Of a DNA stretch of 64,000 nucleotides, positions 32 to 48,689 are shown in pieces (position 1 is the first letter of the stretch; each line of letters opens with the position of its first letter). The notes below the pieces were generated by a model. That model did no database searches and was not told where the DNA came from. It worked only from the letters and a program-made list of their open reading frames with translations. Origin of the DNA: Sipunculus nudus (Eukaryota; Annelida; Sipuncula; Golfingiida; Sipunculidae). The position numbers were made by a program, and so were the translations under genes. The stretch covers positions 60,768,917 through 60,832,916 of the forward strand of contig CM049319.1 of assembly GCA_026874595.1 (NCBI GenBank), read 5' to 3'.

Positions 32-3000
32 CTAGAAATAAGAACAGATTCAATTCAGCACAAGTGGTCAGTATGTGTATGATTAACATGGAAAATAATC
101 CCTTCAGGAAATAAGCATCAACAAGTGGCCAATGGGCCATGACACTCAGCTGAATTTGACTGGGTGCTCATTCTTTCAGTAATGTTATATAATGTCTGGG
201 AGAATAGCCTATGGGTAATGATACTACCGGTATGTTGAAAATTGGACGGGAAATAACAATTTCAGGATTCAAAGGAGACTTGCAAAAGGACAGCCTTGGA
301 TTAAACAATAGAAGATTCCAAGGAAAATAGAAACAATTTGTACCCTGTCTCCCTGGGTGCTAAAAATCATGTTTCTGGTCTTTACCTTACAGAATATAGG
401 TCATCATGACCCAATTTCAGGTTTTCAAGGAGATTTGCCAAGGTTCTTCCTGAATGTTACGTTAGAAGAGTCTAGGGCTAATGGATACAATTTGTCTGAC
501 TGCTCAAAATCATGCTCCTGACCAGTAGCTTTCAGAATAAAATTCACCATGAACTAATTTTAAATTTCAAAAGAGATTTGCCCAGGACCTAGGCCTAATG
601 CATACAAATTACCCATCTGATGTTAAAGGGGCTCAAATCTCCCTGGATGTAGTGTTGGAAGATTTTGGGGCTTAAGGATACAATTTGTACCCTATCTAAC
701 TGTATTTGACATGTTTTATATGAATTAAGTTGCCTAATTTCAGGATTCAAAGGCAACTTGCCAACAACCTCCCTTGACTTACGATAGTAGGTTCAAAAGA
801 AAATAGATACCGTGTCTATCTGGGTTCTCAAATCCATACCTTTTTTACTCATAGTGTACAAAATATAGCCTGTGCACCATGACCTAATTTCTGGTTTCTA
901 AAGAGATTTCTCTATAACCTCCCTAGAAGGTATTTTAGAAAAGTCTAGGGCTAATGCATACAATATGTGCCCATCTGACATTCAGGGTGCTCATGTGACA
1001 TCTTTTTCCCTGTATGTTGCAGAATACAGGTCCCAGTGACCTAATTTCATGTTTCAAAGTACATTTGCCTGGGACCTCCCTGGATGTTATGTTAGAATAT
1101 TCTGGGCCTAGTGGATACAATTTGTGCCCTTCTGTCTGGGTGCTCAAAATTGTGTTTTCGGCCTGGGTTGCAATAAAAGGTCACTATGACCTAATTTCAG
1201 TTTCCAAGTAGATTTGCGTAGAACCTCCCTGGATATTGTGAAGAAAGATTCTGGGCTTAACAGACATTAACTGTGTCTATCTGCCATTCAAGGTACTCCT
1301 ATGACATTTTTCATATAGGTTGCAGAATATAGGTCACCATGACCTAATTTCATGTTTCCAAAGACATTTGCCTAGGACCACCCTGGAAATTATGTTAGAA
1401 TATTCAAGGCCTAATGGATACAATTAGTGCCTCATCTGACTGTCTCAGTGCTCAATATCATATTTTTTTGGTCCACAGGTTGCAAAATATAGGTCTCACT
1501 GATATAATTTCCAGTTTCCAAGGACATTTGACTCGGACCTCCCTAAATGTTAAGTTAGAAGATTCTAGGCCTAATGGATACACTTTGTGCCCCGCCTGAC
1601 TGTCTGGGTGCTAAAAATCATGTTTCTAGCCCATAGGTTACAAAATTTGGGTCATCATGACTTAATTTCAGGTTTCCAAGGAGATTTGCCTAGGACCTCC
1701 TTGGATGTGAAGTTAAAAGTTTCTAGGTCTAATGGTAACAATTTGTGCCCTGTTAATGGAAGGCCAGAAATGGACGATAGACAAAGGGTGATTGATATAG
1801 CTCAGATGACTTCCAGTCAGCTGAGCTAATAATTGGTAGAGGTTTCACCGAAAGAATATCATTAGAGGAGATCCAAGTTTTTTTCAGACTATTAATTTTC
1901 TTCCATACAATATGTGGAGCTATGTTCCTTGCAGCAATATTATTCAGTTTTCTGCTAGCAATATCAGTTTTCTGCATCTGTTAGTGGTGTTCCAATTAAT
2001 CAATTATATCGATAATCATCCTTTTCTTTCAAAATTATTTAAATCTATTGCATTTTTTAAACAAGGGACCAATGAGTCACGTCACTCAGCTGAATTTTGG
2101 AAAAATATTAGTAACTGAAAGATATATTTTTATTTCTTTTGGTTTTAGATATATATTACCATTTGAATAGCTGAAAGAAATTGCCCTGCTAAAATGAAAC
2201 TCTGTAAATTATTGCATAATGGACATGAGCTAAAGCATATGCACTATGCACTGTGTACATAATAAATGAAACCTTTGGCCTGAAACCATTTAGTGATGCA
2301 CCTAGGGGAAAAATGGGACAACGGTGTTATATAAAAAATACATTTCATAAAAAAAATAATGTGTGAAGGTGATTAAGTTTTCAATGTTAAATACTTTGCC
2401 ACATGAGTTAACAAGTGACCCATGGGTCATGACGCTCAGCTGACTCGGAAGAGATTTGCAAAAGGAAATTTTATCATCTGAATGGTAGTATATAACCATT
2501 CAACTGAAGCATCAAACAGATTAACCAACAGGCTGAGATTGTGTCTGTATTAATATATCTCAAAAATAGAGAAAAAATGCGTAAACTTTGAAAAAAATAC
2601 AGGTGGCTCCACCAGTCTGCAGAAACTAATAAAAACACTTAATGGTCAATATCCATGCAAAGTGCAAAGAAGCATGGTGGTCTCTGGATTAGTTGTTCAG
2701 ATACTTCAGCTTTTGTATCAAATTTTCCATTATTCTGAGGGATACTTTGGAGTCTTATAGCTTGAAGGATATGGGTAACAGAGACCTAATTTCAGGTTTC
2801 CATAGACACTTTTCATGGGCCTCCTTGCATGACAATAATGAAGATTTTAGGTCCAGTTGTTACTATTTGTACCCTGTTGACTGATAACCACATCTTTTAA
2901 GGTCTCAAAAATAGAGAAAATAATTCGTAAAAATTTGAAAAAAAATAGAGGTGGCACACCCAGTCTGCTAAAACTGATGGAACATGTCATGATCAATATG

Positions 3001-6000
3001 TATGCTAAAAATCATAAGCATCAGTGTTGTAGTTATTGAGATACTGGAGTTTTTGTATCAAATTTTTCTTTATTCTGGGGGTTATATTGGAGCCATACAG
3101 CTTAATGGATATGGGTAACAGAGACCTAATTAAAGGTTTCAATGGAGATTTTTCATGGGTCTCCCTGTGTGAAAAGAATGAAGATTCTAGGTCCAGTTGT
3201 TATGATTTGTGCCATGTTAACAGATGTTCATATCTTTGAAGGTCTCAAAAATAGAGAAAAAAAATTCGAAAAAAAGCCCGAACAAATATATGTGGTGCCA
3301 CCAGGCTGCAGAAACTGATGAAACACTCCATGATCAATATCCATACAAACAATTATGGTGATCTCTGCATTAGTTGTTCAGATACTTCAGCTTTTGTATC
3401 AAATTTTCCATTATTCAGAGCTGTACTTTGGAGTGCCATAGCTCAGAGGATATGGGTAACAGAGACCTAATTTCAGGTTTCCATGGCGACTTTTCATAGG
3501 TCTCCCTGTGTGTCAAGAATGAAGATTCCATGTCCAATTTGAACCCTGTTGACAGATAACTACATCCTTAAAGGTCTCAAAATAGAGAAAAATTTGTAAA
3601 AATTTGAAAAATACAGGTGGTGCCACCAGTCTGCAGAAACTGATGAAACATCTCTTGATCAATATATATGCCAAAAATCATGACTATCAGTGATGTAGTT
3701 AATCAGATATTGATGTTTTTTTATGAAATTTTGACTATTCTGGGTGGTACTTTGGGGCCCCATAGCTTGAAGGATATGGGTAACAGAGACCAAATTTCTA
3801 GTTTCTATGTAGACTTTTCATAGGTCTCTCAGAATTTCAAGAATGAAGATTCTAGGTCCAGTCTTAACAATTTGTGCCCTGTTAACAGATGTCCACATTT
3901 TTAAAGGTCTCAAAAATAGAGAAAAAAATTTGTAAAAAATAAAAAAAATAGAGGTGGCGCACCCAGGCTGCGGAAACTCATGAAACACTCCATGATCAAT
4001 ATCCATTCAAACAATTATGGTGATCTCTGCATTAGTTGTTCAGATACTTCAGCTTTTGTATCAAATTTTCCATTATTCTGAGCTGTACTTTGGAGTGCCA
4101 CAGCTCAAAGGATATGGGTAACAGAGACCTAATTTCATGTTTCCATGGAGACTTTTCATGGTTCACCCTGTGTGTCAAGGATGAAATTTCTAGGTCCGGT
4201 CGTTACAATTTGAACTCAGTTGACAGATACCTACATCCTTAAAGGTCTCAAAAAGAGAAAAAACAAGGGACCTATGGGTCACGGCGCTCAGCTGTTATAT
4301 ATGATAAAAAAATATGATTTAGATATGATTCACGTGCTGGTTTTGTGTGGTAAAAAATATGAGCTGTATTATGAGTTGTTGTTGTTTAGCTTATGTATGA
4401 TTTTGATAGTATCTCTGGAGACAGGGAAGAGGATTGATTTCATTTATTTTATTAACAAATGGAGTACTATTGTCGCACAGATTTTGACTTTGCCATATAA
4501 CTTATAAGCAGAACATATAATATAAGAGTTTAACTATTAATTAAAAAAATTACAAATATTGTCCCAAATATAATTTTTATTAAAAATAATAAGAGAACCT
4601 TATGATTTTTTAAAATGAAATATAACTGAAATGATTATTAAAATAATATTAAAGAATATATTCATGAATGCATTAATGAATACATTTGGAAAGTATTTGC
4701 ACTGGTATTCATATAGTTTCATTTTTACCTGAATTCCCATTCTGTATGCAAGAAATTTTATAATGGAGTACATATTCATATTTGTATTTAAATACAATTG
4801 CAAATTATTCGCACCATGTCGGGTATTTATTCAGTTTTCACCGAACAATGATGTTGAGTATCCAGAATATACAAAATTAACACATTTAAATAATGATCAT
4901 AAGTACCTGGTTTTATGGCTTTTATTTATATTTAAAAAAATAAATGTAATATATTCATTTTGGATAAATTTCACATTGATGTACACACTAGACACAGTAG
5001 GAATCTAGATTAATATTATCAACTGCATCTTTGTCCATCATTACTTTCCTTCATATGATCCACAATCATTAGTAATAAATAATATGATTTACTTTTTTAT
5101 CATTAAAATTGAACTGAAAAGTACCATAGGTGACTGCATGGTGTTATTTGGAATACATGACATTCTGTCCATCGATACAAGATTCTTATATCATCAGTAA
5201 CTGCAAGTTAATTTCCTGTTATTATAAACTAACAAATTCCTTTTCTATTTTTCTTTAATTTGTTATTAAAAACTAATAAAAAATTATTAATTTATTGTTT
5301 ATTGTTATGTTGTTGGTTAAAACTACTAGATGAGTTGGGTTGGACACCTGGATCAACTGTGGCTGGCCATTATATAATAAGCTGCCTGGAGCCCAAGTTT
5401 ATGCCTCCCCTCAAGCATGCATAATTTGCTGAAAGTTCAACAAGGTCAACATACAGGTGACTCAAGAGGGGCTGGAGAGGGCCAAGGTCTGACATGGTCT
5501 CATAGAAACATTTACAAAAGCTACAATTTTTGGCCAATTTCTTTCAGCTTTCTAAACTAAAAAGCTGAAATCCTTATGTGTGCATGACATAAAAATTATA
5601 TCAACAGTGCTCACAGGAAACAAACGTGCCATAGTCAAAGTTGAGCAAAATTTAAGGTACTAATTTTATATTTATACTAATAACTTATAAAATTTGAAAA
5701 ATTCAGGACTAATTTTAGGTATTTAATTGAATCTTGATTAAATAATGTTACATCCCTGACAAAAAAATCTCTAGCTTCAGCAATATCCTTGTTAAGGGAG
5801 TAAATATATTTCTTGATTTTTTTACAAAGTGCATTATGTTTTGGCCCATAACTTAAAACAATTACGCAATACTGACATCATTTCTGGCATGTGCATAGAG
5901 AATGTATAGAAAAATATGTATATAATATATGATTAAAGTCAGACCAGTTGTTTTGATATTAGGCAGTCTTGAAGTGTAAAAATGGGTTTTTAATGGAAAA

Positions 6001-9000
6001 ATGAAGTTTTTCATTAATATCTCGAAGGTATTAAGTCCTAGTGACCAAATTCTTGGCATGGTAGGGGATTTTGGAGACATCTAATTTTATGCCAAATTTA
6101 AGGAACTGAGAGCTGAAGCTGGGGAGCTGAGCTCTTGCAAACTGCATAACACTAGCTTTATGTAAACAATATGTTACATGGTGTTTAAAAACTCGAATAA
6201 AATCTACAGTTTTTGATCAACTGGTTTCAAATTTTTGGTGTTAACAGACAGTGCTACCAAAAACATGCTGTGAAAATTAAATCCACAGTACTTACAGGAA
6301 AAAAACGTGCCATGGTCAAAGTTGGGCTAAATTTAAGGTACCAATTTTTTATTTTTGTTAATATTTTAAAAAATTTAAAAGATTTTGATCTAATTTTGGG
6401 TATACAATTTAATTTTGATTAATTAAAGTTATATTACTGGAAAAAAGTCCATAGCTTTAATATGTTTTGTGTTAAGTGATCAAATATCTTTCCTGATTTT
6501 TTACAAAATGCATTATGTTTGGGCCCATAACTTTTATAAATTATATAATACAGACATAATATCTGGCATGTACATAGGAACTATATAGAGGAATATTTAC
6601 TGTAAATATGAGGAAAAACAGATGAGTCATTTTGATATTAGGCAGTCCTGAAGTGTGAAAATAGGTTTTTAATAAAAAATTGAGGTTTTTCCTTAATTTC
6701 TCAAAGGAACGAAGTCGCAAAGACCCAGTTTTCGGCTTGGTAGGAGATCTTGGGGACATCTAACATTATACCAAATTTTGGATTCCTAGGTCTTACGGTT
6801 TCAAAACGTGCCACATCTACGGACGGACGGACAGACGGACGGACGACGGACAATGGACCACGACTGTAGCTCAGATGACTTATAGTCAGCTGAGCTAAAA
6901 ATTGTAAAAATTTGAAAAATCCAGGTGGCGCCACCAGTCTGCAGAAACTGATGAAACATCACATGATCAATATGTATGCTAAAAATCATGACCATCAGTG
7001 ATGTAGTTAATGAGATATTGAAGTTTTTGTATGAAATTTTTCACTATTCTGGGGGGTACTTTGGGGCCCAATAGCTCAAAGAATATGGGTAACAGAGACC
7101 TAATTTCTGATTTCCATGGAGACTTTTCATAGGTCTCTCAGAATTACAAGAATGAAGATTCTAGGTCCAGTCTTTATGATTTGTGCCCTGTTAACAGATG
7201 TCCACATTTTTAAAAGTCTCAAAAATTGAGAAAAAAATTTGTAAAAAATAAAAAAATACAGGTGACGCCACCAGTCTGCAGGAACTAATGGAACATCTCA
7301 TAATCAATATGTATGCCAAAAATCATGACCATCAGTGATGTAGGTAATGAGATATTGAAGATTTTGTATGAAATTTTAGACTATTCTGGGGGGTACTTAG
7401 GGGCCCCATAGCTCAAAGGATATGGGTAACAGAGACCTAATTCAAGGTTTCCAAGGAGATTTTTTATGGACCTCTTTGGATGTAAAGTAAGAAGATTCCA
7501 GGTCCAGTGGTTACGATCTGTGCCTTGTTAACGGACAGACGGCCGGATGGCCGGATGGCCGGACGGACGACGGACAAAGAGTGATCGCTATAGCTCAGAT
7601 GACTTACAGTCAGCTGAGCTAAAAATTAATCCCACAAAGTTTGACCAATATTCCTGATTTTAAAACTTAGTTTAACAGTGTTATTCACACCTTGGCCCGG
7701 CCAACTCTAAGAAATATGAATGAAATGTAACAAAGTATTTATATCTTCTTAAATCTCGTCAGTTAGCACTTACATTAGATCCTAATATTTAATCATATTT
7801 GATTATTAGGATTAAATTCCTGAACATTTTTTTCTTTAAAACAAGGGACCTATGGGTCACGACGCTCAGCTGTTATATATAATAAAAAAATATTATTTAG
7901 AAATGAGGCACATGCTGGTTTTGTGTGGTAATAAATATAAGCTGTATTATGAGTTGTTGTTGTTTAGCCTATGTATGATTTTTATAGTACCTTTGGAGAC
8001 AGGGAAGAGGATTGATTTCATTTATTTTATTAACAAATGGAGTACTACTGTCACACAGATTTTGACTTGGCCATATAACTTATAAGCAGAACATATAATA
8101 TAAGAGTTTAACTATTTATTAAAAAAATTACAAATATTATCCCAAATATAATTTTTATTAAAAATAAAAAGAGAATCATATGATTTTTTAAAATGAAATA
8201 TAACTGATATGATTATTAAAATAATATTAAAGAATATATTCATGAATGCATTCATGAATACATTTTGAAAGTATTTGCACGAGTATTCATATACTTTCAT
8301 TTTTACCTGAATTCCCATTCTTTATGCAAGAAATTTTATAATGGAGTACATAATCATATTCGTATTTAAATACAATTACAAAGTATTCGCACCACGTCTG
8401 GTATTTATTCAGTTTTCACCAAACAATGATGTTGAGAATCCAGAATATACAAAATTCACACATTTAAATAATGATCATAAGTACCTGGTTTTATGGCTTT
8501 TATTTATATTAAAAAATAACTGTAAAAAATTCATTTTGGACTAATTTCACATCAATGTACACACTAGACACAGTAGGAATCTAGATTAATATTATCAACT
8601 GCATCTTTGTCTATCATTAATTTCCTTCATATAATCCTTAATGATTAGTAATGAATAATATGATTTACTTCTTTATCATTAAAAATGAACTGAAAAATGC
8701 CATAGGTGACTGCATGGTGTTATTTGGAATATGTGACATTCTACCCATCGATACAAGATTCTTATATCATCAGTAACTGCAAGTTAATTTCCTGTTATTA
8801 TAAACTAACAAATTCCTTTTCTATTTTTCTTTAATTTGTTATTAAAAACCAATAAAAATTTATTAATTTATTGTTTATTGTTATGTTGTTGGTTAAAACT
8901 ACTAGATGAGTTGGGTTGAACACCTGGATCAACTGTGGCTGGCCATCAGCTGCCTGGATTCTCCCCTCAAGCGTGCATAATTTGATGAAAGGTCAACAAG

Positions 9001-18000: not shown

Positions 18001-21000
18001 TAAAACTGGTATACTGAGGCCTTTATATCAGAATTCTCAGGAAACCCTTCCAAGATGTGTCCGAGTGTAAAATTTCAAATTTCTTACCCTTACAGTTGTG
18101 ACAAGGCTGATATTATTTCCACTCACTTTTGCAATAGATCTCTTGATCCTTTTCAGCCAGGTTTGAAGAATCCAGCTTTTTGTGACATGCATGGCAGGTG
18201 AAACACAGCGTGTGGTAAGACTGAAAAAGGAAAAGTAATGTGAGACCATCTGATTCATGACAGATCATACTTTCTTTCTGTTTATTAAATGACCCCACCA
18301 ATGGAAATATTCTTGTAAGCTGGACCTTCATTATGCTGTACTCTGCAGAAATGCTGAGAAAGTAAAATCAGAACGCATGAAATTACAAAATCTGCAGGGC
18401 ATAACTCAAAAATTAAAATGAATCAAAGGAAATCAGAAGAAATAAACAAAATGATTGACAAGTTAAATCACCAAAAACCGAATAAACTAGGTTACTAGAG
18501 AAACATGGGTCTTGAAACTCAGCTGAATTCGTCTATAATTTTTTTTTCAAAATGTGGGCCCTGTGACCTTGACCCTATGACCTTAAAATCAATAGGGTTC
18601 TTCCTCTATGGGTAGGTGTGCCAAACGTAGAAGATGAGATGGTTTGGGATGAAAGGGTTTGCTTCAAATGTATCCAAGAGTATTAAATGGAACAAAGCAT
18701 CATCATTATAAATCCTTTGAATTTCAGTCAGCTGAGCTAAAAGTCATTCCAGAGATGGTGCTGAAAATTTATAATTAATTCTTATCACTTGCAGTATACC
18801 AATAATTACTACATTTGACCTGTGACATCTGGGTTTTAGTGTGTACGCAAATGGCAGTCCCTATGTGTGGTTGTTTCAACCAAACCCAAATCCTCATATT
18901 ATAGTAGGATAAAAATGGTTTATTAAATAAAATAAGAGCTCCACAAACGTGCATAATATGCCTTTTATGTCTTGTGACCTCTGACCTCATTAAATATGTG
19001 TGAAATCTGCTAAGGAATTCAACTGAGATGAGAAACTCTATTGGTAAATATGTATAATGAGTTTCATGAGAAGAAAGGATTTTTGCTAAGTCACCACGGT
19101 ACCTCCTAAGTGAGGAGACCTCTCACCTCATTAAACATGCGTGTATTTTGCTGGAAATCAAACTTAGGTGAGATATTTTAATGACTAACATTTCTGTTGA
19201 GTTTTATCAAAATCCTTCATATTCTTCTTAAGTTATTGCAGCGACACCACAAAGTAGCTTAATGACAAATTACCTTACAAAACTTGCAGGGATTTTGCCC
19301 ATAATCACAGTCGGGCGAGATAATCTGTTGGTAAGAAGTTATAGTGAGTTTGGTGAATATCCATCATAGCCCTGGTAAGTTTTCATGGCAACACTAAAAG
19401 TTAACGGACGGACATATGGACAGTGGATATACCATAATACTCCTGTCATTTGGCAGGCTTATAAAAACACTTGAAAATTCCTCAAATGCTCCATTTCTGT
19501 TTAGATATAAATAATACAAAAATCAGTTACCTGTCCAGCTCCCATCTTCTTCTCGGCAGCATAAACCACCTTGTCACATCGCCTGCAAGAGTCACCACCA
19601 GAGCTCCAACGAGACCGCTCACCGTTTCCGTTAGCCTTCCCTCCGTTCATGTCAAGTTCTCCCATCTTATCAATCACTGGAGCCACATAAGCTTCCGCTG
19701 TGTAAGGAACATTCCTGCAATAAAAGGTATCATTATTAATCAATATTTGGTTATAATTTTCTATAAACATTTCTAATACAACACCTACTTTTGTGGAAAG
19801 GCTGGGTAGGTTTTTTTTTTTTAAGGACTTTTTTCATTCAAAGTTTCATGTATAATGTTTACTCTCCTGAGTTTTAAGTGAAAAAAATACAATAATCTGT
19901 GGAATATATTACTATTTTTAATTCATATTTTTCTCTCAAAATATTGGTTCGACTACAGTAACCTCATTCCAAGCCATGCATCATGAGTCTTCAAAACAAT
20001 TAAACTCTGCCTGTCTAATAAGGCCTATTTTAAGGATGTGTCAAAAATATATAAATGTTATAAAATAGCAGCTATCAGTGGTTGGTTCCATCTAAGATGA
20101 CCAAATCACATCCTAATTAAAGTAGCCCATTCAAGTACCTTTTAAAAAAGAATGTCTAATTTCTAGTTTCCCCTCTGTATATATTAATGATCTATGGATA
20201 TTTTTGGTTGTGAAAAGTTCTCATAGGGCCTTAGTGAAGGATGTATGAACTTGTTTATCAACAACATATTTGTAAACACAGAAATGTTGACAAACGGAAA
20301 CAAGGGACCTATGGGTCACGACGCTCAGCTGTTATATATGATAAAAAAATATTATTTAGAAATGAGGCACATGCTGGTTTTGTGTGGTAATAAATATAAG
20401 CTGTATTATGAGTTGTTGTTGTTTAGCTTATGTATGATTTTGATAGTACCTTTGGAGACAGGGAAGAGGACTAATTTCATTTGTTTTATTAACAAATGGA
20501 GTACTACTGTCACACAGATTTTGACTTGGCCAGATAACTTATAAGCAGAACATATAATATAAGAGTTTAACTATTTATTAAAAAAATTACAAATATAATC
20601 ATATTCGTATTTAAATACAATTACAAAGTATTCGCACCATGTCTGGTATTTATTCAGTTTTCACCAAACAATGATGTTGAGAATCCAGAATATACAAAAT
20701 TCACACATTTAAATAATGATCATAAGTACCTGGTTTTATGGCTTTTATTTATATTAAAAAGTAACTGTAAAAAATTCATTCTGGACTTATTTCACATCAA
20801 TGTACACACTAGACACAGTAGGAATCTAGATTAATATTATCAACTGCATCTTTGTCTATCATTAATTTCCTTCATATAATCCCTAATGATTAGTAATGAA
20901 TAATATGATTTACTTCTTTATCATTAAAATTGAACTGAAAATGCCATAGGTGACTGCATGGTGTTATTTGGAATATGTGACATTCTACCCATCGATACAA

Positions 21001-24000: not shown

Positions 24001-27000
24001 TTAGCAGGCCTTCTACTGTATATGGATTATTTGTATAATCAAAATGACAGAATCACATTCTCTGAAAACTGCACATTTGCGAGCCTGTTGGCAATCCTGA
24101 AAAGTACTAGAGACCTTGATATTATAAAAAGTACTGGAGTTCTCATGCAAGAAACTGTATCATAATATTCTGATATCACCATGAATATCGCTTTACACTT
24201 AATTGATTATCTTAATATTATACTGATATCTTCACAAACCTGATCCAAAGCAGCCCCAGTCAAAACAAGTCGCTATGTTTCCTATATTAATTTCCAAGTT
24301 CAACTAGGAAAGGTTAAAAGAAAGCAAATGTATGCATTATACAAAGTCTGTAAACACCAGCATTAAACTGATGTTTGGTATGTCCCTGAGAGTGGTATAA
24401 CTTGATAACAATAAGAAAAGTTGAGAACCCTAACTACATTCTGTATCTATACTTAACACTACCTAACCCAACCTTCCTTTGACACACAGCCATGTATGGA
24501 CCCCAAGTAAATTAATTCAAATATGCTCAGACACACAGATAAAGTAAAATATGGCATATATTAGAACATACTGTCTGGTAACTACATTGCTTTTTCCAGT
24601 GTCCATCGACAGCATGGTGCCAGCACCACAGGCGTAGCCATAACCCTTCGGCCCGAACTGTTTGTTGTAACATGGCCTGCAGTACAGCTCCCCATCATGA
24701 TCAGCTGCAGAGGTACTGTCTACTTTTTTATGGCAGTTACCTGCAACATAAGGGTTTATATTGTCAAAGATGTTAACATAGAAGGAGAGAGCACTCCAAG
24801 TTCAATGCTTGCAGCCATGCTATCCTTTGAGTTTATTTCACTAGCCTATTGTGCTGACAGTGGTACTTGCCCCCCCCCCTCTTATCTTAAATTTCATTAA
24901 GCCTAACTGGGCAGATTGTCTGGTTTGATGTGTTTTATGCACTTGAGAGTAAACCTTTCATGGGTCTAACACACTGGGTGTGATTTCAAGAATTAATAGA
25001 ATCAGCAGAAGTCAATTTTCATATTCTGTACTTTCCATAATTTAATCAATTTAACACATTAAACAGGGCAAGAAAAACAATACACTGGTATTGCAAAGAC
25101 AATATACTGGTACTACACCAGTAAAACTATTTAACCAATTGAAAATGAGCAAACTTGTACAAAATAAAACAGCTACACTCACACTCAGTTCAACATATTA
25201 AGCTTAATAACTACTTAAGGGATGAAAAATAGCCTTTTGGGTACAAATGGCGAATTTGGCAAAACGTTGGGTGCAAAGAGTGAATTTGCCTAATGATGTG
25301 ATAAAATTTTAGGTAAATTTATGTATATAAAAAACCATCAATCATGAATAAGCAGCCATGACTAACCAAAAACATGATAATTAGATTCCCTGAATTATCA
25401 AAGAAAACATCTTACCACAATTAAAGCATAGCTTATGGTACTTCCTGCCCAGGGCTAGCATCTGCTCTGCGAAGTAAACTCGCTTGCCACATCGGGGGCA
25501 GCAGTCCGGGTCCTCCTTGTTCACATACTCCTCTCTAGGGGAGGACGTTTCCCTGGAGACCATGGAATAACAAAAGTACAAGCAACATTAAACATTGGAT
25601 AATAAAGAGTGACTAGATATACAAGTATTCATTATAGGCCTGTTAATTGCTGTGATTCAATTTGATTATCAATTATTGCCTTTTGATTGAATTCTCGGTT
25701 TGATTACTGTATACCTTAGAAATATTCTGTCAGAGACATGTGTGTACTAAACATTTTCATCCCATATGATGCTATAAGATTAAGATTATTATATACTCGA
25801 GAATTTGTGCAGACCAAGTAATATTTAAATCTTCTCATCCATTATTGTGCTAACATCTGTTAATCTCTCTCTGAAAAAATATGCCTTTAGTTTTGATTTG
25901 AAAATTGGCAGAGATTGACTTGATCTGATGTCTAGAGGAAGAGCATTCCATAATGAATGTCCAGTTGCATAGAATGCTCTCTCACCACACAAGGCCCTTT
26001 AAGTTCTTGGACATCCTAACATGTGGCTGTCAGTTGACTGTAAGGTTCTTGTAGGTCTTTACGGATGGATTAGTTCTTTAAGATAGATGTGTGCCAGGTT
26101 ATGTTTGTGAACAACAAAATTTTAAATGTTATCCTCTGTGCTATTGAGAGCCAGTGGAGATCATATTAAGGTGAAATAAGGCCATGTTTATGTGTTCTGG
26201 TGATAATCCTGGCAGCAGTACAGCTACAGGTCAATGCTTTATCATGAAATATTAACATCTTTGCTCCGTGTATGGTACAAACTCACTTTTTCTCGGAGCC
26301 ATTGGTGGCCCCATTATCCATTGACAGCATGGTCCCGGCTCCTCCAGCAAATCCATAGCCTTTTGGTCCAAAGTTTCTCCCATGGCAGCTTTTACAGTAC
26401 AGCTCACCCTCATGATCAGCAGCACTCCGACTGTCAACCTTAGTGTGGCAGAGAGCTGTGAAGAAAAAAAATGTCCTCGTTAATGTGGCAGAGAGCTGTG
26501 GAGAAAAGACATGTCCCCATTAATGTGGCAGAGAGCTGTGGAAAAAAAATGTCCACATTAATGTGGCAGAGAGCTGTGGGAAAAAAAAATGTCCACGTTA
26601 ATGTGGCAGAGAGCTGTGGAGAAAAGAAATGTCCACGTTAATGTGGCGAAGAGCTGTGGAGAAAAGAAATGTCCACATTAATGTGGCAAAGAGCTGTGGA
26701 GAAAAGAAATGTCCACGTTAATGTAGCAAAGAGCTGTGGAGAAAAGAAATGTCCATGTTAATGTGGCAAAGAGCTGTGGAGAAAGGAATGTCCAAGTTAA
26801 TGTGGCAAAGAACTGTGGAGAAAAGAACAAATGTCCACATTACAGTGGCAGAGAGCTGTGGAGAAAAAAAATGTCCATGTTAATGTGGCAAAGAGCTGTG
26901 GAGAAAAGAACAAATGTCCAAGTTAATGTGGCAAAGAACTGTGGAGAAAAGAAATGTCCATGTTAATGTGGCAAAGAGTTGTGGAGAAAAGAACAAATGT

Positions 27001-30000
27001 CCACATTACAGTGGCAGAGAGCTGTGGAGAAAAAAAATGTCCATGTTTATGTGGCAAAGAGCTGTGGAGAAAAGAAATGTCCACATTAATGTGGCAAAGA
27101 GCTGTGGAGAAAAGAACAAATGTCCACATTACAGTGGCAAAGAGCTGTGGAGGAAAGAACAAATGTCCACATTACAGTGGCAAAGAGCTGTGGAGAAAAG
27201 AAGAAATGTCCACATTACAGTGGCAAAGAGCTGTGGAGAAAAGAACAAATGTCCACATTACAGTGGCAAAGAGCTGTGGAGAAAAGAACAAATGTCCATG
27301 TCAATGCTTGTAGAGGAGTGATAATGTTTCATACAGGGATTACCTGGAGTTTCTTTATGTGTGCAGTTAAAGTCAGGTATCACACAGATTCTACAGGGGT
27401 CAAAATACTTTGAAATTTACAACTTTCCAATGGAAAGGCATTAATACAGGTTCACCTTTCCACAGAAAAATTTGCCTTTCTGCTATAAAGATGCCTCCTG
27501 CCATCATATCAAACTTTCAGTGAACCTTCGCTTGGTGTAAATCCAATTCTGCCATCATACAAGCCATCCTACATGCACATGTGCTTGCGAAAAGAACTGA
27601 ATGTTTTCAATAGTAACACTGTTATATCAGAAACATGATTTTGCAGGAAATTATGAGAGATGAGGGCTTAAATGCTGGAGGGCAGAAGGAATTATAGACC
27701 AAATGTAGGAAATAGAGGTAGTCGCTGAAAGACCCTGTTTGTTCCTGTTCATCAGATACTAATATGGAAAACGTCTAGTGTTCACCATTCCAATGAATTG
27801 GTACAAAATGAAAAATGCCTTTCTGTTGCCTGTGTTATGACAGGCGGAAAGGCTTTATTTAGAGCCCTGTTATACAGAAAAGGTAGGTGACGGCATGCTT
27901 TCATTACACACGCCCCTTTATCTAATAATACCATTCACCGAGGATAGTTATGTAATGTGTGCTCATGTTCTACCAAAGCCTTAAGCCCTGATTAAATATA
28001 TGCCTGAGATCAAACCTGAATGGAGTGTCTGACACATACCACATGAGAAGCAGGCCTTATGCCACTTGCGGCTCAAGAACAGCTTTTCCTCCGCAAAGTA
28101 CACAGTTTTTCCACAGCGGGGGCAGCACTTGGGATCGGTCTTGTTGACGTATTCCTGCTTCGGGGCAGAACCAGCTTCTGATGATATCTTCCTCCAGCAC
28201 TGGTTACAAACCAGCGTGTTCTCCTCCAGGATGTTGGCCATTCCTGTATCAGACATGACCCGGTGGCATCCAGCTGTAATATGTTAATTTAGTGACATGT
28301 ATATCTGGTTCATGATGATGTACAATAGAACCTGTCTAAAAGATCACCTGTGTAATATTATAAGACCATTTGTCCATTTAGACCACACTTGAGTGAACTG
28401 AATGCATTGATATTGGTTATAACTTTACAACTGTCCCGTCTAATAAAACCACCTGTAAATATGACCTATTTGGCCAGCCTGACAGGTGTCCTTATTAGAC
28501 AGGTTTCACTGTACTTCATAGATTACACTTTGGTGAGGATAAACGCCTCCTTTTTTTCTGTCTTATCTTATTAATAATGCAATTATGTACATCTGCAGAG
28601 TTCCATTTGATGTCATAATGGTAAAACTTGCTTATTATTTTATTATTGAATAGAATGAAAAATAAGGGTTAGTTGTGAGCACAGTATTTACATAAGAGGC
28701 CATTTTTTATGTAATTGACAATGGTCAGAGACTGCTAAAAGAGCCAAATTTGATCCCCACAGTCAAACAGTCTGAAATTACATGTGTGCAGTTGGACACC
28801 TGGACCCCCAAGAACTGAGCTTCCAAGTAAGATTTGGGGCATCTCACATGTTTACCCCACATTCCTGAAAGCCCTGAATTTATGATATCCCTTGAAAACT
28901 TTTTTTTAAACAGACCTTAACTGATAATTCCATGTTTTTGACCATTGTGCTAGATATAATTTCTGTATAACATATTCATTTTTATGATTAACTTTGCAAA
29001 TAATTAAATGTTTATATTCTCCCCTTTGCAATTAATTTTATTTTACAATGACCTGAGTGTTGAATATTTTCTTAAATTTAACTAGAATACAGGTAGTCGA
29101 CAAGCGACTACTTGTATCCGCCTAAATCAGAGTGGAACGGGTGAAGTGTTGCATATTAGCATGGATATTTTATCCCATGGCAGACAAACAGATGGGAGCT
29201 GTGCAAACATGGCTGCAGGTGGCGCCACCAGTTTTGCGTATGATAAAGAGCTATGTGAGATTTATACACATGCAAAATTTTGGCCCAATCGGTCAAACGG
29301 TTCCCTAGATATGAGCTTGGATGTCTGCAGCATAAACTTGATTGTAGGTGGCGCCACCTGTCATAAAATCAGAAAAGCTATCCAGGATGTATAAGCATGC
29401 CGAATTTCAGGTGAATTAGTCAAACCACTGCAGAAATATGAGTGATTTTAACCCAAGGCAGACGAACAGATGGACACTGTGCAAACATGGTTGCAGGTGG
29501 TGCCACCATTTTCGGTGTATGTTATAAAGCTCTCCAAGGGCTACATTTGTGCAAAAAATTTTTCCTGATCGGTCAAACGGTTCCTGAGATATGAGCTTGG
29601 ATGTCTGCAGCGTAAACGTGAATGTAGGTGGCGCCACCTGTCATAAATCAGAAAAGCTATCCAGGATGTATACGCATGCTAAATTTCAGGTGAATTAGTC
29701 AAGTCACTGCAGAGATATGAGTGATTTTAACCCAAGGCAGACAAACAGATGGACACTGTGCAAACATGGTTGCAGGTAGCGCCACCATTTTTGGTGTATG
29801 TTATAAAGCTCTCCAAGGGCTACATTTGTGCAAAAGAATTTTCCTGATCGGTCAAACGGTTCCCGAGATATGACTTTTGATGTCTGCAGCGTAAACGTGA
29901 ATGTAGGTGGCGCCACCTGTCATAAAATCAGAAAAGCTATCCAGGATGTATACGCATGCCCAATTTCAGGTGAATTAGTCAAGTCACTGCAGAGATATGA

Positions 30001-33000
30001 GTGATTTTAACCCAAGGCAGACGAACAGATGGACACTGTGCAAACATGGTTGCAGGTGGCGCCACCATTTTTGGTGTATGTTATAAAGCTCTCCAAGGGC
30101 TACATTTGTGCAAAAGAATTTTCCTGATCGGTCAAACGGTTCCCGAGATATGAGCTTGGATGTCTGCAGCGTAAACGTGAATGTAGGTGGCGCCACCTGT
30201 CATAAAATCAGAAAAGCTATCCAGGATGTTTACGCATGCCCAATTTCAGGTGAATTAGTCAAGTCACTGCAGAGATATGAGTGATTTTAACCCAAGGCAG
30301 ACGAACAGATGGACACTGTGCAAACATGGTTGCAGGTGGCGCCACCATTTTTGGTGTATGTTATAAAGCTCTCCGAGGGCTACATTTGTGCAAAAAAATT
30401 TTCCTGATCGGTCAAACAGTTCCTGAGATATGTGGGTTTATGTGTGGAAACAGATGCACAAACGGACGCAGAGCGCAAAGGAAAGGTCAGAGGTCAAAAC
30501 AAAATCGGGGCGCAGCAGTTCACATGTGACCCGAACATAATCCCGGGTTTCGGAAAATTCCGCCCAGCGGTTACGGAGGAGTTCTCCGGACACCTACGCG
30601 GCGGCGGCGGCGGCCAGCTGAAAACATAGTATCCGCAAAACTCTGTTTTGGCGGATACAATAACAAATCAAGTACTTAATTTCAAAATCTTTACAACCAT
30701 TGATTGCATTTTTAGGTGTCTCAGCCATTCATCAGGTTCATGATCATCATGAATGGAACCTCATGAAAATTTCATGACATTTTGGAGAATGAACCAATTA
30801 AGAAAAGGTAAGATTTTGGTGTGGTTTGGCATATGATCAGGATTCAGGTATACAATCAAGGAATATTCCCAATTGTACATTAATTTATCCATGAACAAAT
30901 CTGGCAATATTAGCTTAAACCTAAATTAGTGAAAGCAAACACAGTTTGGGAGCAGATTTCTGGTTGTTATATGGACTGAAAATCTCAAGTGCAATATAGT
31001 AACTGTCAAGTCCTCTTCAGAGCATAATGGATAACTGAAACATCCTGAGTTAAGTAAGTGGATCAAAACTGCATTTATTTGCATCCTCAAACAAGCAGAT
31101 GTTACCACTGAGTGGACGACATGATTGTATATTCAATAAAATCAATGTCAGGTCTCTTAGCACAAACACAATCACCAGACGTCTCTTAGCACAAGCACAA
31201 TAGCTAGCATCTGGTGCCGGGCACTGATTTACATTTGTAATGCATAGTGCACATACTTGAAGTACACTTGTTGATATTCCAAACATGTGCTCAGCAAAGG
31301 TAACACAAAGACCATGGTAATAAAGCATGAAGGAATTTTTTTACATACAGCTGAATCATTAATTATATACCACTATGATAAACTCAGCCAAGTAGTTTTT
31401 TTTATTACTGTTGTTTCATTGGTATATGTTTGCAATATCTTATGGAGGGTTGTGGTTTTTTTAAATATTTTTTCTGAAGGAGGTAACCACCTCAATTTGG
31501 CAAAAGCTAGCATAATTGATATGTATATCTGCAGGATTCCATTCTGCTAGTCCGAAACCAGATTGGAAGGGTAACACCCAAGGATTAATTCATTAAATTT
31601 TGAAAACAAGCTGGTTCTCCATAATGTCTTTTTTTACAGGGACTACTTTGACATTGCAAGATAGGTAAATGCAACAGGGTAATAAAGAATAATAGATGGT
31701 CATCTTTCACTTGCTAATAATAGGGGAAAATTTCCAGACGAGGTGGAATGTTTCTGCTGCTTAGAGTGTGCATGGGTGTACTGTTACTTATTGAGGCCAT
31801 CTTTGTTCTGGTGGGCAGAACTGACCTGTTATGCAAATAGAGTTGATAAATTGTGATACACATTTCTCTCCACTTGGATTCATATATATATTCACATATA
31901 TTTCTCAATTACATTTATTCCTGACAAATAAGCTCAATAAAAGTTGTGTGATAGTTTATCAAATATATTGATTGGTGGTTTTCTTTAATAACTGTTTAAA
32001 CTTTTTTAGCATTTTTGCATAACTGATCACAAATTATGGAAGCACATCCAAAGAATTCATATTATCCAGATAAAATATTCTAAATCTGTCTGAGACAAAG
32101 ACAGGTTATAAAACAGCCAACAGCATTAAAACTGAACCTTATGCAGCGAATAAGTGTCCTATTCCAGGCTGTTACTTTTCAACATCGTGAACAATCTACA
32201 GTCAATATATAAGGTATAATTCTATACAACAGATTTTACAAAGAGTTAAAAAAAAAAAACTGTTAACAAGCAAATTCATGGAATTTATGTCCCCCACTTT
32301 CGCCTCTTGTTGTCATTCTGATTCATGCTTGACTTATAATGTTTTAGATTCATTCTGGCCTGAAGATGTTTCCACATGTCATAGTGGCTGTTTTCAGTTT
32401 TCATGGTCCCCTGAAGATGTCTCTACATATTCTAATTTTGGTTGGGAAATATAAACAAAATTTGATTTTTTTTAGAAAAACATTTCAGACAGACACTCCA
32501 AACCAGTCCTAACCAAGGTATACAAAGAAGCAATCAGTGGCCCAAATTTGAAGGAAATCGGAAAATATTAAGAAAGTTACCTAAAGAAAACAAAAATGTG
32601 ACAGACGGACAGACAAAAGGACAAATCCAATTCAACGTCCCCTGTTCTGAGAAAGCAGGGATAATAATTGATCATTGGTCGATTTTTATCTTTCAATCAC
32701 TGAATATGATCTTAAAACCAATTCTTACCATTAAATCATAAAGACAATGTTCAATTCAAATGTCAAATCTATGACATGGATCCAACAAATTTTAAATTAT
32801 GTTCATAAATTTTCATAATGCTTCTATGTTTAGCCATAGTGCTTCACAGCAAATTCTACTTAAAGATCTGCATTGATCTGTCCTTGCTTCAAGTGAAGTT
32901 TTTTAAATTTAAGTTATTCTTTCCATAAATATTTGCATGTTGAGGACAAAATCTAGGGTGCTCTTCATGAAAAAAAAATAAGGTCACCTGGACTACGTTT

Positions 33001-43419: not shown

Positions 43420-44345
43420 AAAGTTTGGCTAAAAGGCATTCACCCATTTAAATTTTTAGAAATATGAGTCCTGATCGAGACCTTGACATCTGACCTTGTG
43501 ACCCCAATAGGGAAAGGGATATTTGCCTATTGGCTGGTGAGCTGTGTGTGTAAGACAGAACCTCTGGTATGAAAGGTTTTGCTTAAAATGCATCCCCAGT
43601 TTCTAAAGATGTGGGGACTGTGACATTGACCTCTGACCTCATGTCCCTAAATGAGGAAGGATGTTTATTTTAGTGTTGGGCCATATAAAAGTCCATTTTA
43701 AAATCCATATTTTAATCCCAACTGGAGTTATCATCTTGAAATAGATATGTGGACAGATGGCTCCTGTGACCTTGACCTTTGAACTTGTGCCCCCAAGATT
43801 GACAGAGATGTTTCCCTCTTGGCAGGTGACATATGTGTAAGATAGAAAGACTGGCAAGGAAAGTTTGGCTGAAAATGCATCCATAAAGTTTTTAAAAATG
43901 TGAGTCCAGGCACCCTGACCTTTGACCTCATGACCCCAAAATCAATAGGGTTCTTGCTTTTGTGTTGGGCCATTTATGTATCATGTTTGAAATCCATATG
44001 TGAATCAAAACTGGAGTTATCATCCAGAAATGAATTTGTGGACAGATGGCTCCTATTATCTTGACCTTTGAACTTGTGACCCCAAGATTAATGGAGATGT
44101 TTCCCTTTTTGGCAGGTATCGTATATCTGTAAGATGGGAAGACTGGCATGAAAAGTTTGGCTGAAATTGCATCCACAATGTTTTTATAAATGTGAGTCCT
44201 GACACCTTGACCTTTGGCCTCATGACCCCAAAATCTATAGGATTCTTACTTTAGTGTTGGGTCATTTATATATTAAATTTAAAATCAATATGTGAATCAA
44301 AACTGGAGTTCTCATCTGATAATGAATATTGGACTGACAGACTGT
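43420..44345 (+). repeat. Orphan array of DR1-type cores related to G elements
   Basis: About three to four units of roughly 285 bp carry TTGACCTTTGA, TGGACAGATGGCTCCTGTG and AAAGTTTGGCTGAAAATGC. A perfect TGACCTTTGACCT lies at 43916-43928. The right end has GACAGACTGTCAGATGGACA, but no hairpin terminus is clear. Confidence 0.65.
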
Positions 44346-46091: not shown

Positions 46092-48689
46092 ATTTCTTGG
46101 CACCGCAGGTGCCAGAGTATCCCCAGACATAGTAGGCCCCCCCCCCCCCCTTTATGAATAGACCCCCATTTTTAGCAGCATATACTGACACTTGGCATAT
46201 TTATTGTTTCTTCCAGCTAACAATCCACAATCTTGTTGAAGATATTGGTCCTGTGACCTTGATCTTTTAAAAGATGTGTCCTGTGACCTTGACCTTTGAC
46301 CTCATGACCCCAAAATCAATTGGGGTCTTGTTTTTCCAATGGGACATATACAAGTCAAGTTTGAAATCCATACATCAATAAAAGCAGGAATTATAATCCA
46401 GAAACTAATTTTTGGACAGATGGCTCCTGTGACCTTCACCTTTTACCTTGTGACCTCAAAATTGACAGGGGTCTTCCACTCTTGGCCAGTGAACTATATG
46501 TGCAAGATGAAAGATCTGAGATGAATTGTTTGGCTGAAAATGCATCCACAATCTTTTTAAAGAGATTTCCTGTGACCTTGACCTTTGACCTCATGACCCA
46601 GAAATCAATTTGGGTCTTGCTTTTCCAATGGGTCAAATACAAGTCAAGTTTGAAATCCATACATCAATAAAAGAAGGAATTATCATCCAGAAACTAATTT
46701 TTGGACAGATGGCTCCTGTGACCTTCACCTTTGACCTGGTGACCTCAAAACTGATAGGGGTCTTCCTCTCTTGGCAGGTGAACTATATGTGCAAGATGAA
46801 ACATCTGAGATGAAATGTTTGGCTGAAAATGCATCAACAATTTTTTAAAGATGTCCTGTGACCTTGACCTTTGACTGAATGACCCAAAATCAATTGGGTC
46901 TTGCTTTTCCAATGAGACATATACAAGTCAAGTTTGAAATCCATACATCAATAAAAGCAGGAATTATCATCCAGAAACTAATTTTTGGACAGATGGCTCC
47001 TGTGACCTTCACCTTTGACCTTGTGACCTCAAAACTGATAGGAGTCTTCCACTCTTGGCAGGTGAACTATATGTGCAAGATGAAAGATCTGAGATGAAAT
47101 GTTTGGCTGAAAATGCATCAACAATTTTTTAAAGATGTGTCCTGTGACCTTGACCTTTGACTGAATGACCCAAAATCAATTGGGTCTTGCTTTTCCAATG
47201 AGACATATACAAGTCAAGTTTGAAATCCATACATCAATAAAAGCAGGAATTATCATCCAGAAACTAATTTTTGGACAGATGGCTCCTGTGACCTTCACCT
47301 TTGACCTTGTGACCTCAAAACTGATAGGGGTCTTCCACTCTTGGCAGGTGAACTATATGTGCAAGATGAAAGATCTGACATGAATTGTTTGGCTGAAAAT
47401 GCATCAACAATTTTTTAAAGAGGTTTCCTGTGACCTTGACCTTTGACCTCATGACCCAGAAATCGATTCGGGTCTTGCTTTTCCAATGGGTCAAATACAA
47501 GTCAAGTTTGAAATCCATACATCAATAAAAGAAGGAATTATCATCCAGAAACTAATTTTTGGACAGATGGCTCCTGTGACCTTCACCTTTGACCTTGTGA
47601 CCTCAAAACTGATAGGGGTCTTCCACTCTTGGCCGGTGAACTATATGTGCAAGATGAAAGATCTGAGATGAAATGTATGGCTGGAAATGCATCCACAATC
47701 TTTTTAAAGATGTGTCCTGTGACCTTGACCTTTGACCTCATGACCCAAAAATCAATAGGAGTCTTGCTTTTTCAATGGGACATATATAAGTCAATTTTGA
47801 AATCAATACATTAATAAAAGCAGGAATTATCATCCAGAAACTAATTTTTGGACAGATAGCTCCTGTGGCCTTTACCTTTGACCTTGTGACCCCAAAATTT
47901 ATATGGATCATCCACTTTTGGCAAGTGAGCTATATATTCAAGATGGAAGACCTGGGATGAAAGTTTGGCTTAAAATGCATCCACAGTATCTTTTAAAATG
48001 CCAGTCCAGTGACCTTGACCTTTGACCTCATGACCCTAGAACCTATAGGGTTCTTACTTTAGTGGTGGGCCATACATAAGTCATGTTTGAAATCCATGTC
48101 TATCAACACTGGAGATATCATAAGAGGTGTGTGATTTTCACCATATATGGCAATATTCAAGGTCAAGGCCACTATCATGGGAAAGGTCATGACCCCAATT
48201 TAAATAAACATCATCCCATAACCCTTACCTATGTATATGCATAATATAAAAGAAATCTGTCCATTAGTTTTTTACTTATAATGCTCACAGTACTGTAAGG
48301 TGGCAATTTTGGGGGTATTAAACGGCACGAAAACAAGTAAAGAATAATAGGTGGCGCCACCAGTTTCTGGAACATGACAACCCTATCCATGATCTTCCAT
48401 CAACTTGATTTTGGGATAAATCCATGCAAGATTTCCTGAGATATTAAAGAATTTGTGTGATTTTCCCCAAAATTGGACCTATTCAAGGTCAAGGACACTC
48501 TCCTAGTAAAGGTCATGACCTCATTTTTAATAGGCGTCGTCCTCTTACCCATATCTAAACATATACCAAGTTTGGTAAAGTTCTGTGAAATATTTTTTGG
48601 GTTATAGCGCCAACAAGATTTATATGCGGCGGCGGCGGGGGGACCGGTATGAAAACATAGTATCCCCCGACTTTGTCTGGGGATACAAT
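46092..48689 (+). mobile_element. Element G2: seven ~287-bp DR1-type cores with inverted ends
   Basis: The 5' end TTTCTTGGCACCGCAGGTGC folds as a hairpin and is followed by GTATCCCCAGACA and a 14-C run (46137-46150). The exact inverse TGTCTGGGGATAC closes the element at about 48675-48687. Cores recur near 46284, 46573, 46857, 47146, 47431, 47720 and 48010. A GGC tract is at 48627-48640. No protein is encoded; the many 60-70-codon frames repeat with the cores. Confidence 0.85.
46290..48028. promoter_or_regulatory. Perfect DR1 motifs repeated across G2 cores
   Basis: TGACCTTTGACCT is present at 46290-46302, 46579-46591, 47437-47449, 47726-47738 and 48016-48028. It is usually preceded by TGACCT, giving TGACCTTGA, an ERR/FTZ-F1-type extended half-site. 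Other cores have one-base variants. The motif is certain; receptor binding is untested. Confidence 0.35.

Follow-up and report, generated by a model that had tools for sequence, protein, structure and literature searches.

The host gene

The window, that is, the whole stretch of 64,000 nucleotides that was analysed, carries a multi-LIM gene (CRP/MLP-like) on its minus strand, in which the 3' half of one intron is taken up by a tandem array. The parts of the gene that are needed below are as follows.

Exon 3, 28040..28273, minus strand: first half of a LIM domain, ending in CFSC + G; its start is putative
Intron 3, 26456..28039, minus strand: phase 1, with the array in its 3' half
True exon-4 acceptor AG, 26456..26457, minus strand: assigned by reading frame and LIM homology
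Candidate branch point for the true acceptor (TTAAC), 26479..26483, minus strand: A at 26480, with the last intron base 24 nt further on
Exon 4, 26287..26455, minus strand: 169 nt, second half of the LIM domain, with the donor GTGAGT next to it
Exon 5, 25416..25552, minus strand: first half of the next LIM domain; the intron after it matches intron 3 in position and phase
Exon 6, 24586..24740, minus strand: paralogue of exon 4, end not fixed; its acceptor has no nearby copies

Exons 3 and 4 jointly code for a LIM domain and, behind it, a GPKGYGF glycine-rich stretch. The domain scores 43.2 bits against the Pfam LIM model (cut-off 22.9), and the best relative of solved structure is CRP1 (1b8t, E 2e-41, with a query lacking one alanine). 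A preliminary description of this DNA had set the donor of exon 3 at 28039, where a GT does begin, and had taken the last unit of the array as the real acceptor of exon 4, in agreement with the AG at 26457-26456 that reading frame and LIM homology single out. More LIM modules come from exons 5 and 6 and from neighbouring exons. For a half-domain that ends at 33969 the donor position coincides with that of intron 3 (the next exon was not found), and the module with an exon at 18220 (18100-18220) has no intron at that place. Because the intron is common to at least two LIM modules, it is probably older than the array, judging from the gene sequence. A protein search of the genome returned nine matches: five in this gene, three with 55-60% identity at another locus, on contig 4, and one weak match on contig 6. 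Given this distribution, no second close copy of the gene was seen in that search.

Other tandem repeats are also present. A 280-bp repeat lies upstream of exon 3 at 29167-30432 (4.5 copies, 93% matches), and arrays of long period (160, about 340 and 289 bp) are found in and around the gene at 875-1749, 2558-4263, 6897-7532, 43479-44316 and 46265-48097.

Structure of the array

The array was delimited with TRF, which reports a period of 40 (also 83), 21.1 copies and 87% matches. At its low end the array reaches 24 bp into exon 4. When it is cut at the acceptor, 21 acceptor positions result, from one partial first unit and 20 complete units.

Tandem array, 26432..27298, minus strand: about 21 copies of a 38-43 bp unit (TRF)
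First (partial) unit, 27274..27306, minus strand: CATTGAC branch-like region, pyrimidine tract and CACAG; the presumed original intron end
Complete units (20), 26456..27273, minus strand: the last, 26495-26456, carries the true acceptor
Decoy AG positions, minus strand: from 27275-27274, where the partial unit ends, through to 26497-26496
Mutated decoy position, 26979..26980, minus strand: AG changed to AA (CACAA)

The array of about 21 copies and the roughly 20 decoy acceptors directly upstream of the true site, both named in the preliminary description, are thus real: there are 20 decoy positions, and the AG is kept at 19 of them. The finer claims made there fared less evenly. A unit length of 40-43 bp holds for most units (43 bp in seven, 40 bp in eleven), but single units of 39 and 38 bp also occur. 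CACAG was said to be in every unit, which is right apart from the one CACAA. The claim that every unit has TTAAC is wrong, since only 9 of the 20 do; the others include TGTAATG (six units) and ATAAAC (one), and the looser branch motif yUnAy occurs in 13 of 20. A CU-rich tract is present in every unit.

Fourteen of the 20 units differ from their nearest neighbour at 0-2 positions, four units on the exon side at 3-4, and the inner units 9 and 12 at 5 and 4. Units 1-4 at the far edge are near-identical (0-2 differences among them), and units 6, 7 and 8 pair with units 10, 11 and 13 at 1, 1 and 0 differences; these pairings look like signs of duplication within the array. In 3 of 20 units the core CCACATTAATGTGG forms a perfect palindrome, and for 11 of 20 the predicted fold of the unit's first 24 nt reaches -5.0 kcal/mol or below. 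Weak folds are predicted for the last two units (-2.5 and -1.2), but a hairpin was rejected as a mark of the true site, as seven other units fold just as weakly (-1.4 to -2.8). A fold prediction for the whole array, run without a shuffle control, gave nothing useful.

Origin from the intron-exon boundary

The units resemble the beginning of exon 4. When 24 nt from the start of each unit are compared with the start of the exon, each of the 20 units agrees at 18-21 positions and their consensus at 20 of 24; at the 126,159 other window positions on both strands the consensus reaches 16 or fewer. Within 2 kb the 24-mer at the exon-4 junction has 20 copies with at least 18 of 24 matches, and for the 12 other junctions of the gene (six acceptors and six donors, with control 24-mers placed at the junction or within 3 nt of it) no copies were found at that level and distance. 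The exon codons for A-L-C-H, which are preserved in the unit, fit the LIM family, and this makes the exon the likely source. An origin of the array from the intron 3/exon 4 boundary is therefore well supported at the sequence level, as the preliminary description had proposed from the same likeness, and the exon-4 junction is the one among 13 that has copies.

How much of the exon was included is less certain. Over exon nucleotides 1-12 no column is mismatched in all units, the four units adjoining the exon match at 12 of 12, and the exact exon 12-mer occurs at none of the 126,154 window positions outside the array region. On the intron side of the array, the sequence TTGACATGGACA of the partial unit is like the units' TTAACATGGACA at 11 of 12 positions, a level reached at 10 places in the array region and at 1 of the 126,154 positions outside. 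The two edges of the array sum to one unit with a shared CA, which is what a single founder duplication would be expected to leave. Exon nucleotides 13-24 are a weaker match: at three columns no unit agrees with the exon, the unit consensus agrees at 9 of 12 (a level reached at 59 of 126,154 outside positions), and the partial first unit at 7 of 12 (2512 of 126,154 positions). The estimate of 12-16 exon bases per unit in the preliminary description is thus clear for the first 12 nt, but the likeness beyond them is weaker. Because the 9/12 agreement exceeds chance, a founder with a 24-nt exon part, or an older event, may still be entertained; the longer founder is less favoured than one with 12 nt, because the intron-side edge agrees at 11 of 12 against 9 of 12 for exon nucleotides 13-24.

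In the best-fitting model, a founder piece of about 31 nt of the intron end (branch region, pyrimidine tract and CACAG) and 12 nt of exon 4 would have been joined at the shared CA, and later duplications would have raised the number to about 21 copies. The gradient of exon similarity along the array is weak (rho 0.47, p 0.037, from 20 non-independent units). Elsewhere in intron 3 no older unit remnants stood out above shuffled sequence (best 21/40; shuffles had a mean of 19.5 and a maximum of 23).

The array in its genomic context

A two-unit query run against the 1.43-Gb genome, in a search that skips very common words, gave 13 matches, all within the array. For comparison a 304-kb sample of contig 14 was used, comprising the window, four flanking stretches and 20 spaced stretches. 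It contains 58 distinct arrays (period 10-400, at least 2.5 copies) and 392 acceptor-like sites, or 0.64 per kb of strand, and 19 of these sites lie inside the 0.87-kb array. By a crude flag, there are six other sampled arrays in which half of the copies or more contain acceptor-like sites; three are neighbouring satellite stretches in sampled stretch L021, and one each lies in L023, L027 and L029. Positions 1-9830 of L021 (25.00 Mb) are almost wholly a 376-bp satellite, and stretch L013 is almost wholly a 342-bp satellite.

These figures bear on two ways in which the array could mislead. It could be a minisatellite of other origin that lies near exon 4 and is like it by chance or composition, and acceptors do arise easily: shuffled units of the same composition had an equally good one in 1390 of 20,000 cases. 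Since composition alone yields acceptors, it is the exon match and not the acceptor motif that carries the case, and here the gap between 20 of 24 at the exon start and at most 16 elsewhere in the window, the perfect 12-nt match of the four exon-adjoining units and the failure of the two-unit query to match any other place in the genome, very common words being skipped, make such an origin extremely improbable. The array could also have been collapsed or inflated during assembly. The copy number of a 0.87-kb array in one assembly could be off, but the units carry distinct variants and the contig is 68 Mb long, and we regard an artefact as highly improbable.

Predicted consequences of decoy use

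Splicing to a decoy was followed by computation. The frame would be shifted at 14 of the 20 decoy positions and kept at 6, but the preliminary description, which had expected a frame shift in most cases, was too mild, because a premature stop is met from all 20, 156 nt or more upstream of the exon-4 end. For 17 of the 20, the first stop lies 53 or 56 nt in. Read from the sequence, this stop appears to be the TAA that lies in the branch-like region one copy further on; the last decoy would meet the corresponding TAA in exon 4 instead. If exon 4 alone is skipped, a stop also results. A join of exon 3 to exon 6 (24740-28040) leaves the frame intact, and its product would be a hybrid LIM domain.

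Acceptor strength was rated with a simple consensus that was set by hand. As this score rates some putative acceptors of the same gene low (-5.6 for exon 3), it is a weak yardstick, and the following numbers are a rough guide: among the 19 AG decoys, 15 have a higher score than the true site, and any of the 19 is outscored by at most 88 of the 3447 other AGs on the strand. The strength of the site was considered as the cause of correct choice and gets no support from the simple score; with 15 of 19 decoys above the true site, it fails to explain correct splicing.

Interpretation

The array is probably a 'mirage', the name used in lancelets for minisatellites of this kind, grown by tandem duplication over the boundary of intron 3 and exon 4 and mostly neutral, with the true site picked by the context of exon 4 and its donor, and with unproductive products from the decoys. 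Since the true site is not the strongest, the choice should rest on what follows it, namely exon 4 and a donor 169 nt away. The last copy would be chosen as the one acceptor that precedes the whole of exon 4 near its donor, possibly by way of exon definition and exonic enhancers. Reed and Maniatis reportedly found in 1986, with duplicated acceptors in competition, that exon sequence and position decide. A transcript spliced to a decoy, with its computed early stop, would be open to nonsense-mediated decay. As the decoy products stop early, the array is probably close to neutral for the gene, apart from some wasted transcript. What reading frame and homology show is only that the true acceptor would be needed for a normal LIM domain.

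Functional roles are the main alternatives to a mostly neutral mirage. A steady share of transcripts could be spliced to decoys and destroyed, so that array length would set LIM protein output as a rheostat. The high rank of the decoys among the AGs of the strand, the 15 that score above the true site and the early stops from all 20 positions are in line with this, but stops in intronic extensions are expected anyway, and lancelet mirages with duplicated splice signals are described, in the available parts of the reports, as having no effect on regular splicing; we consider such a rheostat rather unlikely. A brake of variable length is plainly unlikely; in it, about 19 acceptors without a productive outcome, the majority rated no worse than the true site by the simple score, would compete with that site, and copy number would set the amount of LIM protein. 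It is very unlikely that the repeated pyrimidine tracts act as a regulatory array which would govern whether exon 4 is included, through binding of U2AF or a PTB-like protein, with joint skipping of exons 4 and 5 giving an in-frame hybrid LIM domain. The CU-rich tract in every unit and the in-frame join of exon 3 to exon 6 fit this proposal; against it, skipping of exon 4 alone gives a stop, and the in-frame double skip follows from the modular build of the gene.

The array is a natural competition test, with about 20 near-identical acceptors and a working protein expected from the last one only, and how the spliceosome passes over the decoys bears on exon definition.

Comparison with known systems

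A splice-boundary minisatellite is a rare but already described kind of repeat, and as far as its DNA can tell, the present one is a structurally clear case. In lancelets, minisatellite-like duplications of intron-exon boundaries have been named mirages, and the cases given in the available text of these papers are the globins BflGb6 and BflGb9, Adh3, troponin C and PGBD5 (PMC3087553, PMC3902484). In BflGb6 the repeats contain the 3' end of an intron and the 5' part of an exon, many with splice signals, and evolution inside such clusters is described as concerted, with the boundary copies left out (PMC3087553, PMC3902484). Adh3 data and globin RT-PCR suggest that regular splicing is undisturbed; mirage length differs between haplotypes, and somatic instability is reported at Adh3 (PMC3087553). 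The array described here is likewise minisatellite-like and spans an intron-exon boundary, and it shares with lancelet mirages that many but not all repeats have splice signals (AG in 19 of 20). The 10-72 bp units given for the lancelet Adh3 mirage bracket the 38-43 bp found here, whereas the BflGb6 haplotypes are described with 6 and 3 units of 150-160 bp, against about 21 units here. The host also differs, being a LIM gene in a 1.43-Gb genome; lancelet genomes are near 0.5 Gb, and the larger size speaks against a lancelet host. In the titles and abstract beginnings of open-licence papers, no mirages by that name were recognised outside lancelets among the matches listed. If the host is not a lancelet, mirages would be extended beyond the only group in which those matches use the name. 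An abalone intron minisatellite was discarded as a relative, since its unit is 27 bp and the available text ties it to no splice site.

Other systems share single features with the array. A human, and thus non-lancelet, minisatellite also has many copies of a splice signal, but by the part of its description available these are donors, whereas acceptors are repeated here. Introns can be gained by tandem duplication of AG/GT proto-splice sites (cited in the available part of PMC3087553), and this is likewise a tandem duplication across a splice signal. Intron gain makes a new intron, however, and none was made here, as intron 3 is common to other LIM modules; it was rejected as a reading because the intron behind exon 5 agrees with intron 3 in position and phase and the donor after 33969 agrees in position, the module with the exon at 18220 being a counter-case for this sharing. 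In NAGNAG and other tandem acceptors, neighbouring acceptor AGs compete. There the difference is a few bases, whereas here a whole 3' splice site with its branch region is repeated about 20 times.
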